Positions 20,344 through 33,516 of a DNA stretch of 33,516 nt are shown piece by piece. The DNA lies in assembly GCA_903914415.1 (NCBI GenBank), contig CAIWOY010000068.1:1-33516 (forward strand), read 5' to 3'. Origin of the DNA: an uncultured Phycisphaerales bacterium. Its GTDB lineage: Bacteria > Planctomycetota > Phycisphaerae > UBA1845 > Fen-1342. Both the position numbers and the translations under genes were made by a program. The stretch's first letter is position 1; every line of letters starts with the position of its first letter. The notes beneath the pieces were generated by a model. The model searched no databases. It saw only the letters and a program-made list of their open reading frames with translations, and had not been told where the DNA came from.

Positions 20344-21960
20344 TCAGCGCGTCGCGCCTTCAATCTTCTCGTGCTTCTCTTCCTTGTACTCCGTGCAGAG
20401 CACATCCGTGGTCAGCATCAGGCCCGCGACGCTGGCCGCGTTCTGGAGCGCCACCCGCGCGACCTTGGTTGGGTCGATGATGCCGGCCTCGAACATGTCG
20501 ACGTACTCGCCCTTGCTGGCGTCGTAGCCGAAGTTCTTCGGACGCGACTGGATTTCGTCGACGACCACGCCGCCGTCCTCGCCGGCGTTCTGGGCGATTT
20601 GCCGGGCCGGGTATTCGAGCGCCTTGGCGACGATGCGGTAGCCGATGGCCTCGTCGCCCTCGACCTTCTTCGCGGCCTCGAGCACGGGCTTGATCGCCCG
20701 CAGGAACACCACCCCGCCGCCGGGCACAACGCCCTCTTCGGCCGCGGCCTTGGTGGCGTGGAATGCGTCGTCGACCAGGTCCTTGCGCTCCTTAACCTCG
20801 ATCTCCGTCGCGCCGCCGACCTGGACGAGCGCGACGCCGCCGGTCAGCTTCGCCAGGCGCTCCTGGAGCTTCTCGCGGTCGTAGTCGCTGGTGGTCTTCT
20901 CGATCTGGGCGCGGATCTGGCCGATGCGCGCGTCGATTTCCTTCTTCTTGCCGGCGCCTTCGATGATCGTCGTGTCGTCCTTGGTGATGACGACCTTCTT
21001 CGCCCGGCCGAGCATCGTTAGCTCGATGCTTTCCAGCTTGAGCCCGCGATCCTCGCTGATGAACTCCCCGCCGGTCAGCGCCGCGATGTCGCCCAGCATG
21101 GCCTTGCGGCGGTCGCCGAAGCCGGGGGCCTTGACCGCGGCGACGTGCAGCGTGCCACGGAGCTTGTTGACGACGAGCGTCGCCAGCGCCTCGCCGTCGA
21201 CGTCCTCGGCGACGAGCAGCAGCGGCTTGCCGACGTTGAGGGTCTTCTCCAGCAAGGGGATGATGTCGCGGATCGCGCTGATCTTCTTCTCGTAGATCAA
21301 GATGTAGGGGTCTTCGAGCACGACTTCGAGCGTCGCCGGGTTCGTGATGAAGTAGGGCGAGACGAAGCCCTTGTCGAACTGCATGCCCTCGACGTGCTCC
21401 CAGGTCGTGTCGAGGCTCTTGCCCTCCTCGATCTCGATCACGCCGTCCTTGCCGACTTTCTCGAATGCGGCCGACAGGATTTTGCCGACCTCCTTGTCGC
21501 CGTTGGCCGAGATCGTCGCGACCTTGCCGATGTCGTCCTTGCCGCGGACCTTGATCGACTGCTTTTTGATCTCGTCGACGACGATGGCAACCGCCGCGTC
21601 AATGCCGCGCTTCAGGGCCATCGGGGCCGCGCCGGCGGTGACGTTCTTGAGCCCCTCGGCGAAGATCGCCTCGGCGAGCACGGTCGCGGTGGTCGTGCCG
21701 TCGCCGGCGATGTCCGAGGTCTTGCTGGCGACCTCGTTGACGAGCTTGGCGCCCATGTTCTGGAACGGCTCGGGCAGCTCGATTTCCTTGCTGACCGTGA
21801 CGCCGTCCTTGGTGATCCGCGGCGCGCCCCACGATTTCTGCATGAGCACGTTGCGGCCGACCGGCCCGAGCGTCGACGCGACGGCCTTCGTGAGCTTGCG
21901 CACGCCGACGAGCATTTCCTGGCGGGCCCGGTCGGAATACATCAGTTGTTTGGCTGGCAT
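20344..21960 (-). CDS. groEL1: Chaperonin GroEL, copy 1 (no GGM tail)
   Basis: This 538-residue Hsp60 forms the double-ring folding chamber closed by GroES. Key features are present: [22 protein letters not shown], the ATP-binding [14 protein letters not shown], and [21 protein letters not shown]. The C-terminus ends [12 protein letters not shown] and lacks the GGM repeats of copy 2, so the cavity floor differs. GAGG lies seven bases before ATG 21960. It follows groES, with an AT-rich inverted repeat in the 100-bp gap. The two copies are clearly diverged paralogues, not a recent duplication. Confidence 0.96.
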
Positions 21961-23056: not shown

Positions 23057-24742
<1,686 letters not shown>

Positions 24743-29729: not shown

Positions 29730-29772
29730 CTACACGGTCGGCGGGCGGCGCCGGCCTCGGCCCGTCCGCGTC

Positions 29773-29846
29773 GCCGGTGTAGCTCAGTTGGATAGAGCGC
29801 TTGACTGTGGATCAAGAGGTCCCCGGTTCGACCCCGGGCGCCGGCA
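29773..29846 (+). tRNA. tRNA-His (GTG), lacking G-1 and C73
   Basis: All arms fold. The acceptor is GCCGGTG (29773-29779) with CGCCGGC (29839-29845), including one U-G pair; the D stem is GCTC/GAGC; the anticodon stem is CTTGA/TCAAG with loop CTGTGGA, so the anticodon is GTG (29807-29809); the T stem is CCCGG/CCGGG with TTCGACC. The discriminator is A (29846) and the base before position 1 is C (29772), whereas canonical bacterial tRNA-His has G-1 paired with C73. CCA is not encoded. The strand opposite its 3' half is the end of the adjacent membrane protein gene. Confidence 0.95.
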
Positions 29847-32045
29847 ATCGAGTCGTAGCCATCGCATCGCGGGGGTCGCGAGCAGGAATGACAGAACGGC
29901 CGCCACGTACCACGGCCAGCGCGTCGCCGGTGCGTATGCGAAGCGGATTTCATGCCGGCCCGCGGGGACCTCGACGGCGGCGAAGCCCGGCGTGACCGGG
30001 AACACGGTCACGGGCACGCCGTCCACCGTCGCACGCAGACCGGGGTGGTAGCCCGCACGCCGAACCACCGCCGCGGGACGCGTGAGGTCCGCCGCGCACG
30101 ACCACGAATCGGCTTCCTCAGTCAACGTGCCGGCGGGCGTCCGTGCTTCCGTACTCAGGGGCAAGGCGGACTCGGGATTGTGGGCGTCGAACGCGGCGAC
30201 AGGCAGATCGGCCGGCCCGTATCCGCCGATCAGCAGGGCCGGGTACTCGCGGCGAAGCGCTAGGGCGCTCTTCAGCCAGGCATTCCCCACGTTGTAGACC
30301 GTCCGCTTCGAGCAACGGATGGCGTACGGCACATCGACCACGCCGAAGTACGCTGTGTCCGGGACCTCGTAGATGCGAAATCTCCCGACCTCGACCAGGA
30401 GCTGCGCGAACGGCGGCGGCGGGCGGTTTTGCTCGAACACGAGGTACCGCACGCCGAACGTCCGGCAATGCACCGGATTGTCCGGATTGAACCAGACCTG
30501 CACGTCGCCCGCATAGGTGATGGCAATCCAGAGGAAGCCGAGCGTGTCGATGCCGTCCAGCAGGCAGAACGCCGTCAGCGGAATGCCGACGACGCGGAGG
30601 TACTCCGCCTGGCGGCCGGGAATACCGACGTACACGCGGCCGCCCTTCAATGAGCGGAGTTCCGTCAGGAGCGGTTGCAGGTCGGCGTCCGCGCGGACGC
30701 CGGCCAGCGCGTCCTGCTTCCACTTCTTGCTCTGCAGGAGATACGCCGCCCGCTCGTTCACTGCGGGCGCCAGCAACAGACCGAGCACGGCCCCGGCGGC
30801 TGCCATGCGCAGCCACTGCTGCGGCGTGGCGAGGCATTGCATCACGAACGCCAGCCCGCAACCGGCCAGCGGGATGGCGAAGAGTTGCACGCCGCCGATG
30901 AAGCGGTGCAGCGGGATGTCGTGTGCGAGTGGCAGGAGGTCGATCAGGCGACCCCACGTCGGCCGGCCGAAGTAGATCAGCAGCCACGCGACGCAGAGAC
31001 CGGCCAACAGGCGCAGCGGCGTGCCGCCGCGCCGCGCTGCGTAGAGCAGGCCGAGTGCCGCGAGTATCGTCACGGCCGGCACGCGGCCCTGGTCGAAAAG
31101 CCGGCCGCCGATCAGGTGCCGCAGCACGACCTTCGCGCCCAGCGAATCCCACTTCTCCTGCTTCTCCCAGACGCTGTGGTTGGCGAACTCGGCGTCCTTG
31201 AGCGCGGGCACGAAGAAGTATGCGCCGACGAGGAGCGTCGTGCCGAGCAGCAACCCAACCCGTCCCGCGCGGCGCAGGCGCTGGGGCCCCGGCACGATGA
31301 ACGCCAGCGTCGACAGCGCCACGATGTAGCCGTACACAAGCTGCGAAACGAACGTCGCGGCGATCAGCAGCGCGGCACGGCCGAGCCCGCGGCCCGTCGT
31401 GACGGCGCGGTACGCAGTCGCGAGCGCTAGTGGGGTCAGCACCGACGCGAAAAGCTGGGCGTACAGCCCGCTGCCGCCCCACAAGTACGATTCGAAGCCC
31501 AGCCCGTACAGGTACGGTGCGGACAGCAGCGGCGCGATGAGGGCCGAGCAGCCGGCTGCCAGCGGGCGCAGGCCGAGCCGCCGCAGCGACCCGTACATCG
31601 CCAGCGGGAACAGGGCGAGCAGCGCCCCGAGCACGACGCGGTACGTCGTGGCCAGGGGGACGAAGCGGCCGACAACCATGTCCACCGCGACGAGAAAAAG
31701 GTGCGGCAAGTGCTGGTAGTGCCGCAGCAGCGGAAAGCCGAGCCCGACGTCCGGGTACCAAAAGTCGATCGCCGACTCGCCGCGGGCCAGCGCCTCCTTC
31801 ATCCGCTGCGCGATGGCCAGGTGGTAGGTCGAGTCGTTCAGGTCGGTGCAATTAATCGCCAGCTCGGGTGTGACGCCGATGGCGACTGTGATCGCGACGA
31901 GGAGCGCGACCGCGAGGCCGAGCCGCCGCTCGCCGGGCGATCCGTCGCCGCAGAGGGAGAAGGCGTCGGACGATTCGGCGGCGCCCGCCGATGGTGGTGC
32001 GGGTGGCGCCTTGGGTGTCTCCGGCCTCGCTGACGAGGTAGACAT
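29784..32045 (-). CDS. Large polytopic membrane protein (PTPS-related/YfhO-like)
   Basis: This 753-residue inner-membrane protein has about ten to twelve transmembrane helices. Its N-terminal half resembles GT-C type or PTPS-related (PF10131) membrane proteins: an acidic DLNDSTYH after the first helix, PDVGLGFPLLRHYQHLPHLF, then helices such as VLGALLALFPLAMYG. The soluble C-terminal part (from about 500) includes VGIPLTAFCLLDGIDTLGF and GYHPGLRATVDGVPVTVFPVTPGFAAVEVPAGRHEIRFAY, a beta domain also common in YfhO-like proteins. A final helix precedes a tail translated from the antisense of tRNA-His (CRRPGSNRGPLDPQSSALSN). The start ATG 32045 has no Shine-Dalgarno sequence. Function unknown; a role in surface polysaccharide or lipid glycosylation is likely for such folds. 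Confidence 0.75.
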   Translation of the reverse strand: MSTSSARPETPKAPPAPPSAGAAESSDAFSLCGDGSPGERRLGLAVALLVAITVAIGVTPELAINCTDLNDSTYHLAIAQRMKEALARGESAIDFWYPDVGLGFPLLRHYQHLPHLFLVAVDMVVGRFVPLATTYRVVLGALLALFPLAMYGSLRRLGLRPLAAGCSALIAPLLSAPYLYGLGFESYLWGGSGLYAQLFASVLTPLALATAYRAVTTGRGLGRAALLIAATFVSQLVYGYIVALSTLAFIVPGPQRLRRAGRVGLLLGTTLLVGAYFFVPALKDAEFANHSVWEKQEKWDSLGAKVVLRHLIGGRLFDQGRVPAVTILAALGLLYAARRGGTPLRLLAGLCVAWLLIYFGRPTWGRLIDLLPLAHDIPLHRFIGGVQLFAIPLAGCGLAFVMQCLATPQQWLRMAAAGAVLGLLLAPAVNERAAYLLQSKKWKQDALAGVRADADLQPLLTELRSLKGGRVYVGIPGRQAEYLRVVGIPLTAFCLLDGIDTLGFLWIAITYAGDVQVWFNPDNPVHCRTFGVRYLVFEQNRPPPPFAQLLVEVGRFRIYEVPDTAYFGVVDVPYAIRCSKRTVYNVGNAWLKSALALRREYPALLIGGYGPADLPVAAFDAHNPESALPLSTEARTPAGTLTEEADSWSCAADLTRPAAVVRRAGYHPGLRATVDGVPVTVFPVTPGFAAVEVPAGRHEIRFAYAPATRWPWYVAAVLSFLLATPAMRWLRLDCRRPGSNRGPLDPQSSALSN

Positions 32046-32052
32046 GCGCAGA

Positions 32053-32081
32053 AGATTACCGCAAGCCCGGCGGGCGGCCAA
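32053..32081 (-). promoter_or_regulatory. Putative leaderless promoter of the polytopic membrane protein gene
   Basis: On the minus strand TTGGCC (32081-32076), 17 bases, TAATCT (32058-32053). Only seven bases remain before ATG 32045, with no Shine-Dalgarno sequence, so the mRNA is predicted to be leaderless. Confidence 0.5.
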
Positions 32082-32144
32082 CTTGCCTGTTGGGAGGGCT
32101 TGTGGTAGTTGATCGGACTGGGACGTTCGCTGGAGGCGACGATC

Positions 32145-33516
32145 GTGGCCGGCATGGTGGAACCGCGTTTGCTGAGGGGCTTGCGGGATTACTTCCCCGA
32201 GCACATGCACGCCCGGCAGTGGATCATCGACACGATCCGCGGGGTGTACGAACGCTACGGCTACGTGCCGCTTGGCACGCCGGCGCTCGAATACCTCGAC
32301 ATCCTGCGCGGTACGGCGGGCGAGGAGAGCGAGAAGCAACTCTTCGAGGTCAAGGGCCCCGACGAGGAGCGGCTCGGGCTGCGTTTCGACCAGACGGTGC
32401 CGCTCGCCCGCGTCGTCGCGCAGTATCCCGACCTGCCGCGGCCGTTCCGCCGGTACCAGGTCTCGCCCGTGTGGCGGTGCGACAACCCGTACGAGAAGCG
32501 CGGGCGGTTCCGCGAGTTCATCCAGTTCGACATCGACGCGGTGGGCGTCGAGTCCGAGGTCGCCGATGTCGAGATGATCACGGCCATGTGCGACACGATG
32601 CAGGCGCTAAACGTCGGGCGGTTCCGCGTGCGCGTCTCGAGCCGCCGCGTGCTGAATCTCCTGCTGACCTACGCCGGCATCGCCCACGATCGGGCGCACG
32701 ACGTGTTCCGCGTTCTGGACAAGCTCGACAAGCTCGGCCACGAGAAGGTCCGCCTGGAGCTGACCACCGGCTACAAGGACGAATCGGGCAGCCCGATCCC
32801 GGGCCTGGGGTTTTCCAGCGCGCAGGTCGATCGCATCGACCAGTTCCTCGCCCTCCGCGCGACCAGCCGGGAGGACGCACTCGCACAGGTGCGCGACCTG
32901 TTCAAGGAAGTGCCCGACGCGGCAACTGAGATCGAAGTGCTCGCCTGCATGTCGCAGCAACTCCACACGCTCGGCTACGGCGACGATGTTGTGGCGTACG
33001 ACCTGACCATCGCCCGCGGCCTCGACTACTACACCGGCACCATCTTCGAGACGCTGCTGCGCGATCTGCCGGACTTCGGCTCAGTCTGCGGCGGCGGGCG
33101 CTATGACGACCTCGTCATGCGGTTCCTCGGCGAGCGCGTGCCGGCGGTCGGCACGTCGGTCGGGGTGGATCGGCTGCTCGTCGCACTGGAGCAGCTCGGC
33201 CGGCTGCCGTCGCGGAAATGCACCGCGCAGGTCCTGGTCACGGTCTTCGACGACGTACCGATCGAGGAGTACCTCGCGCTGGCGTACGAGCTGCGCCGCG
33301 CGGGCATCCCGACCGAGCTCTACCTCGGCACCGAACGCCGCTTCGGCAAGCAGGTCCGGTACGGCGACCACTACGGCATCCCGGTGCTGGTCGTCTGCGG
33401 CGCCGACGAGCGCGCCCGCGGCGAAGTGCAACTCAAAGACCGGTCCGTCGGCCGCAAACGCACCGCCCAAGTCGCCGACCGCGGCCAATGGAAGGCCGAG
33501 CGCCCTGGCCAGTTCA
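32145..33516 (+). CDS. hisS: Histidyl-tRNA synthetase, 3' end beyond window
   Basis: This class II synthetase charges tRNA-His; 457 codons are visible and the frame is open at the window end, so perhaps 20-50 residues are missing. It shows motif 2 (RYQVSPVWRCDNPYEKRGRF, then REFIQFD), the histidine-binding RGLDYYTGTIFE, CGGGRYDDL and motif 3 GTSVGVDRLL, then the anticodon-binding domain. The motif 2 block and the insertion DKLDKLGHEKVRLELTTGYK, then DESG, match the alphaproteobacterial HisRS type better than the E. coli type (GRYRQFHQ). GTG 32145 is chosen for GGAGG at 32132-32136, eight bases upstream; ATG 32154 is the alternative. It diverges from the membrane protein gene, and tRNA-His lies 2.3 kb away. 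Confidence 0.93.
   Translation, partial: MAGMVEPRLLRGLRDYFPEHMHARQWIIDTIRGVYERYGYVPLGTPALEYLDILRGTAGEESEKQLFEVKGPDEERLGLRFDQTVPLARVVAQYPDLPRPFRRYQVSPVWRCDNPYEKRGRFREFIQFDIDAVGVESEVADVEMITAMCDTMQALNVGRFRVRVSSRRVLNLLLTYAGIAHDRAHDVFRVLDKLDKLGHEKVRLELTTGYKDESGSPIPGLGFSSAQVDRIDQFLALRATSREDALAQVRDLFKEVPDAATEIEVLACMSQQLHTLGYGDDVVAYDLTIARGLDYYTGTIFETLLRDLPDFGSVCGGGRYDDLVMRFLGERVPAVGTSVGVDRLLVALEQLGRLPSRKCTAQVLVTVFDDVPIEEYLALAYELRRAGIPTELYLGTERRFGKQVRYGDHYGIPVLVVCGADERARGEVQLKDRSVGRKRTAQVADRGQWKAERPGQF

Follow-up and report, generated by a model that had tools for sequence, protein, structure and literature searches.

The stretch of DNA analysed here, referred to below as the window, is the entire 33,516-nucleotide contig CAIWOY010000068.1 from assembly GCA_903914415.1 of an uncultured Phycisphaerales bacterium. 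Towards its end it carries a histidine tRNA (tRNA-His) gene without G at position -1 and a hisS gene for a histidyl-tRNA synthetase (HisRS) of what we call the A73 type. The features on which the analysis is centred are the following:

29773-29846, forward strand: tRNA-His(GUG), called by ARAGORN, with G1:C72, A73, no G-1 and no encoded CCA
29772, forward strand: base -1 (C) of tRNA-His, read as 5' leader and not as an encoded identity base, varying among relatives
32154-33516, forward strand: hisS for an A73-type HisRS, assigned by TIGR00442, Pfam and tree, with its 3' end lost at the contig end
32481-32531, forward strand: motif-2 loop DNPYEKRGRFREFIQFD, from the alignment and the loops by class, predicted to face the acceptor end
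32718-32738, forward strand: DKLDKLG segment of the insertion domain, from sequence and alignment
32775-32789, forward strand: KDESG insertion, a signature of the A73-type clade according to the distribution of D-x-SG

A histidine tRNA without G-1 and its HisRS gene

An earlier reading of this DNA from its letters alone (the sequence-only reading) had proposed a non-canonical tRNA-His with C-1 and A73. A73 was borne out both by ARAGORN and by our reading of the sequence: the acceptor stem consists of G1CCGGUG7 paired with C66GCCGGC72, its first pair is G1:C72, and the discriminator A73 corresponds to position 29846. C-1, however, is not conserved. Most relatives from family f1 have C at this position and one relative (G416) has G, while T predominates in the rest of the A73 group. 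Because of this variation we rejected C-1 as an identity base and read it as leader only, not as a conserved feature. The same variation bears on the idea that RNase P retains the encoded -1 base, C in the window and frequently U in its relatives, and that the enzyme uses this N-1 instead of G-1. Indeed, many members of the U72 group have U at -1, which is able to pair with A73, and the HisRS of the archaeon A. pernix takes A-1 and C-1 (PMC9976931). However, C-1 forms no standard pair with A73, close relatives that share the HisRS type differ in their -1 base, and we regard this idea as very improbable.

The genome to which the window belongs (G000; 464 contigs, 97% complete) gave 46 tRNA hits, only one of which is a tRNA-His, and an independent tRNA-His pattern search likewise returned this single gene. 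No match to Thg1 (PF04446) was found in the genome by a search that detects Thg1 in the control Methanosarcina, which speaks against an identity of the eukaryotic type, where G-1 is added by Thg1.

The hisS gene starts at about position 32154 (ATG), 2,308 bp downstream of the tRNA gene. Its product scores 356.7 bits against the NCBIfam model TIGR00442 (hisS), above the curated cut-off of 286.75, and thus belongs to this family; its Pfam matches are tRNA-synt_His and HGTP_anticodon. GRFREFIQFD (32502-32531), DKLDKLG and KDESG, the features that the sequence-only reading had pointed out in a HisRS 2.3 kb away, are all present. The best solved relatives are 3net, which we take to be the Nostoc HisRS, 6nhi and human HARS1, with the E. 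coli and Thermus enzymes far behind. Weaker matches were 3hri and 3hrk, presumably trypanosomatid HisRS. A genome-wide search with TIGR00442 returned one near-complete hisS, a fragment at the beginning of contig C3, and weak matches on other genes. The fragment (C3:3-347) is the 3' end of a hisS gene; it is 94% identical to the window gene at the DNA level and has an A73-type C-terminus, and we therefore rejected it as a second, canonical synthetase. It probably represents the window hisS of a variant strain, met where the assembly breaks, and the rest of the window gene lies on C3 or in a variant of C3. Altogether, no second hisS/tRNA-His pair of the canonical type was found in the 97%-complete assembly; the sequence-only reading had named such a pair, with G-1 and C73, as evidence against itself.

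The HisRS type covaries with position 73

For the 114 genomes of the order to which the window belongs, most of them metagenome-assembled genomes (MAGs), the HisRS type was compared with the 3' end of tRNA-His. The agreement was perfect: an A73-type HisRS was accompanied by A73 in all 39 genomes with a readable tRNA, and any other HisRS by C73 in 51 of 51. Outside the order, A73 was found in A73-type genomes of 14 planctomycetes, 5 members of other phyla and 6 alphaproteobacteria. This brings the A73-type genomes with a tRNA read to 64, one of which (G109) was typed from a HisRS fragment. Conversely, four alphaproteobacteria with another HisRS have C73, as do 141 of the 150 tRNA rows listed in a survey of the phylum. 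The pattern search found no tRNA-His in G511, G514 and G166. By sequence, the relatives that bear a name come from MAGs of Phycisphaerae/Phycisphaerales and other planctomycetes (94 to 60% identity), followed by MAGs with the labels Nitrospira, Coatesbacteria, Zixibacteria, Cloacimonadota, unnamed bacteria and Pelagibacterales, and a pair of the canonical type occurs in other genera of the window's own family.

Many planctomycetes with C73 possess a eukaryote-like HisRS that scores about 350-475 bits against the A73-type profile and carries a motif such as RGRFREFWQCDVD (e.g. L082-L096). A eukaryote-like HisRS alone therefore does not imply A73. Likewise, the GRFREF core is also found in the eukaryote-like enzymes of C73 genomes and is for that reason not diagnostic. 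The D-x-SG insertion is the more diagnostic feature of the A73 type, as it is present in 74 of 79 A73-type enzymes and in none of the 17 eukaryote-like enzymes of the C73 type.

Two further observations were made in alphaproteobacteria. One genome (G609) contains two A73-type HisRS genes, on contigs C51 and C24 (562 and 534 bits). In addition, most loci of the RRCH group (L177-L203) show a second open reading frame (ORF) with a weaker match to the HisRS profile beside hisS, presumably HisZ, the regulatory subunit of ATP phosphoribosyltransferase.

Position 72 and the motif-2 loop set the window apart from alphaproteobacteria

U72, A73 and the anticodon form the identity set of Caulobacter, in which U72 is a determinant (PMC9976931), and for another alphaproteobacterial HisRS G1:U72 and A73 were reported to be critical (PMC7590224). 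The window tRNA has C72 and hence does not share this set as a whole, and to this extent the interpretation of the sequence-only reading was not right. Among the 64 A73-type genomes with a tRNA read, 55 have U72 and 9 have C72. The latter are the window genome and 8 members of family f1, all with an A73 tRNA-His and an A73-type HisRS. Since these 8 further family members share the combination seen in the window, it is not due to chance.

The proposed match to the alphaproteobacterial motif-2 block also does not extend to the whole loop. The window loop DNPYEKRGRFREF is two residues longer than the loops of other A73-type enzymes, including the EKPGPGRFREF/GRYRQF-type loops of alphaproteobacteria (28 were extracted, and 2 were not matched by the search expression). 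In length it equals the loop of human HARS1 (NPAMTRGRYREF versus NPYEKRGRFREF). The longer loop is present in 8 of the 9 C72 genomes, the exception being G403, which combines C72 with a short loop. The longer loop is thus not needed for C72, and we rejected a strict coupling of the two. As G403 stands apart from the window subgroup on both the HisRS tree and the rpoB tree described below, C72 probably arose twice.

Phylogeny of the A73-type HisRS

A HisRS tree of 83 sequences was built in a quick and a careful version and rooted on the canonical enzymes. The A73-type enzymes form one clade of 60 rows that includes the window and the RRCH enzymes (SH-aLRT, the Shimodaira-Hasegawa-like approximate likelihood ratio test, 100 in the quick tree), while the canonical enzymes and human HARS1 fall outside. 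The window enzyme consequently does not group with ordinary bacterial forms; it was such a grouping that the sequence-only reading had named as evidence against itself. The clade has three parts. The first consists of the types from Coatesbacteria, Zixibacteria and Nitrospira-labelled MAGs; the second, a well-supported group, is made up of Phycisphaerae enzymes including that of the window; and the third comprises enzymes of scattered planctomycetes and Cloacimonadota and a second one of Coatesbacteria, with the RRCH enzymes as a branch nested among them. The description of the window HisRS as alphaproteobacterial in type was therefore right in so far as both belong to the same divergent family, but not as regards an alphaproteobacterial origin: judging from the tree, the window enzyme is not derived from alphaproteobacterial enzymes. 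A direct transfer from an RRCH alphaproteobacterium into the window lineage might be suggested by A73, the D-x-SG insertion and the FREF core that they have in common. However, the RRCH enzymes form a clade of their own (support 100/98 in the careful tree), apart from the Phycisphaerae group; such a transfer is contradicted by the tree and seems hardly conceivable.

The transfer of a eukaryotic-derived HisRS into alphaproteobacteria has been reported (PMC3937112), and objections have been raised to a eukaryotic HisRS as the origin of the RRCH trait (PMC5370408). In our tree, human HARS1 groups on a long branch with 6nhi and the eukaryote-like enzymes of C73 planctomycetes, and an approximately unbiased (AU) test rejects RRCH and human as one clade (p 0.003). 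Because the RRCH enzymes are nested among bacterial ones, the human enzyme lies outside and the AU test rejects their union, the RRCH enzyme most likely came from other bacteria, or shares a source with them, and did not come directly from a eukaryote. This view is based on a single gene, with one sequence from animals and the root set on the canonical enzymes.

Repeated switching and probable transfer as a pair

An rpoB tree was built for 90 genomes of the order, and the two states of position 73 were mapped on it; G407 (no data) was excluded for counting. The distribution of A73 and C73 requires 9 changes, with at least 7 of these on well-supported branches, a count that does not separate gains from losses. 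Seven independent genome pairs with unlike tRNAs also have unlike HisRS, in each case in the same direction (7/7; sign test p 0.016). Both states occur within the window's family and even within one genus (g351), where G502 has A73 and G503 and G504 have C73. Moreover, the order holds two separate lineages of A73-type HisRS, which implies that this enzyme was acquired there at least twice.

Of 19 genomes in the Phycisphaerae part of the clade, 17 have tRNA-His and hisS on one strand, with the tRNA gene upstream. The gap measures 41-245 bp in 13 of these 17 and 2.3-2.4 kb in the other 4, which include the window. In Coatesbacteria and Pelagibacterales loci, tRNA-His is also found close upstream of hisS. 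When the tRNA bodies were compared, five of six A73 tRNAs tested reached a best identity of only 76-83% to the C73 tRNAs of the order and had different 3' acceptor strands. Even within its own genus, the tRNA of G502 is just 79% identical in its body to those of G503 and G504, again with different 3' acceptor strands. No flanking gene of the pair is shared between G502 and its congeners within about 6 kb on either side, and the insertion site was not located. Owing to the adjacency of the two genes and the divergence of the A73 tRNA bodies from the C73 tRNAs, we favour the view that tRNA-His and hisS were probably transferred together and the resident pair was lost, at least in the Phycisphaerae part. 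Lateral transfer with a matching tRNA, as suggested by the sequence-only reading, is thus supported by covariation, linkage and trees, the joint nature of the transfer being our interpretation of these data.

Several findings weigh against this interpretation or against the wider explanation given below. The sixth A73 tRNA tested, that of G396 (L112:1493-1566; A73/C72), has a body 90% identical to the C73 tRNA of G483 from the same order, and may represent an exception to joint transfer that arose by conversion in situ or by recruitment. In the second A73-type lineage, 20 members of the order have tRNA and hisS on different contigs, so that their linkage is not universal. In addition, the bootstrap of the HisRS tree had not settled, the rpoB tree rests on a single marker, a quick search and mostly MAGs, and G403 has C72 without the longer loop. 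The G396 tRNA and the unlinked genes of the second lineage would fit a scenario in which the HisRS gene alone was transferred and the resident tRNA-His was then converted in situ, by loss of G-1 and replacement of C73 with A73. Ardell and Andersson (2006) are said to have proposed such a scheme for alphaproteobacteria. However, it does not account for the diverged bodies and acceptor strands of the other five A73 tRNAs, for the situation within the genus of G502, or for the neighbouring genes in 17 of 19 genomes, and we consider it unlikely.

Genes around the pair

The gap between tRNA-His and hisS in the window is filled by one further ORF:

29784-32045, reverse strand: large membrane protein with a weak YfhO match (Pfam, below the gathering score; start approximate)

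The same arrangement is seen in a congener (L036), and the ORF is probably a later insertion into the pair and not part of it. In several families and in a Coatesbacteria MAG, the A73-type hisS is directly followed by a gene that matches PF00221 and resembles histidine ammonia-lyase, its best NCBIfam match (L222:7749-9299, L206:4661-6493 on the reverse strand, L040, L048, L069, L073, L141, L144, L146-L152 and L160). In some loci tRNA-His, hisS and the lyase gene stand in a row; no such gene was seen after hisS in the window genome (C3). Possible reasons for this adjacency are histidine balance or joint transfer. Elsewhere in the window, two adjacent, diverged GroEL-like ORFs were recognised by eye on the reverse strand (20344-21960 and 23057-24742), the second of the two having a Gly/Met-rich C-terminal tail.

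A probable G-1-independent identity pair

Taking these findings together, we consider it very likely that the window encodes a histidine identity pair that is independent of G-1, that its tRNA and HisRS were acquired jointly by lateral transfer, and that U72 then changed to C72 and the motif-2 loop was extended. RNase P would cut the single tRNA-His at G1, leaving a tRNA with A73 and without G-1. The A73-type HisRS would charge it by way of the GUG anticodon together with A73 and the acceptor end that faces motif 2. With C72 in place of U72, recognition is expected to depend more on the anticodon and A73 than it does in Caulobacter. The ancestor of the window subgroup would have received tRNA-His and hisS together, after which the tRNA with G-1:C73 and the canonical hisS would have been lost. 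The replacement of U72 by C72 and the gain of two residues in the motif-2 loop would have followed, if we have judged the direction of these changes correctly.

The Caulobacter-type pair of RRCH bacteria resembles that of the window in A73, the lack of an encoded G-1, membership of the same HisRS clade, D-x-SG and the absence of a canonical second pair. It differs in having U72 instead of C72, a loop two residues shorter and its occurrence in another phylum, and it represents a nested branch, not the source. The eukaryotic cytosolic pair shares A73 (PMC6471195) and, in human HARS1, the length of the motif-2 loop, but most eukaryotes add G-1 by Thg1, which the window genome lacks, and HARS1 lies outside the A73-type clade. 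In Trypanosoma brucei and Acanthamoeba castellanii an atypical HisRS charges a tRNA-His without G-1 (PMC6471195, PMC9976931); these are, however, eukaryotes, and closeness in sequence was gauged by the weaker matches to 3hri and 3hrk. The canonical pair of E. coli does the same job with an enzyme of the same class II HisRS family, but with G-1, C73 and a distant HisRS.

Earlier work regarded the change to a tRNA-His with A73 and without G-1 as a trait of probably single origin in bacteria and used it as a marker of alphaproteobacterial descent (PMC3937112). A search of the open-access literature found no report of the trait in bacteria other than alphaproteobacteria, which is no proof of novelty. 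A restriction of the trait to RRCH and SAR11 is contradicted by the present survey, and a single bacterial origin does not stand: the same pair occurs in several phyla and switches between close relatives, which undermines its use as a single-origin marker. With somewhat less confidence than for the window itself, we think it likely that the identity without G-1 is a mobile bacterial module, in which a tRNA-His/hisS pair has often replaced the canonical pair within the order and in several phyla, which forms the source pool of the RRCH enzymes, and in which U72 gave way to C72 in the window's family. The spread of the pair over several phyla thereby provides a possible bacterial source of the alphaproteobacterial enzyme. 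The natural series from C73 through A73/U72 to A73/C72 provides a test bed for the replacement of a tRNA identity code, and the A73/C72 pair is a candidate orthogonal pair.

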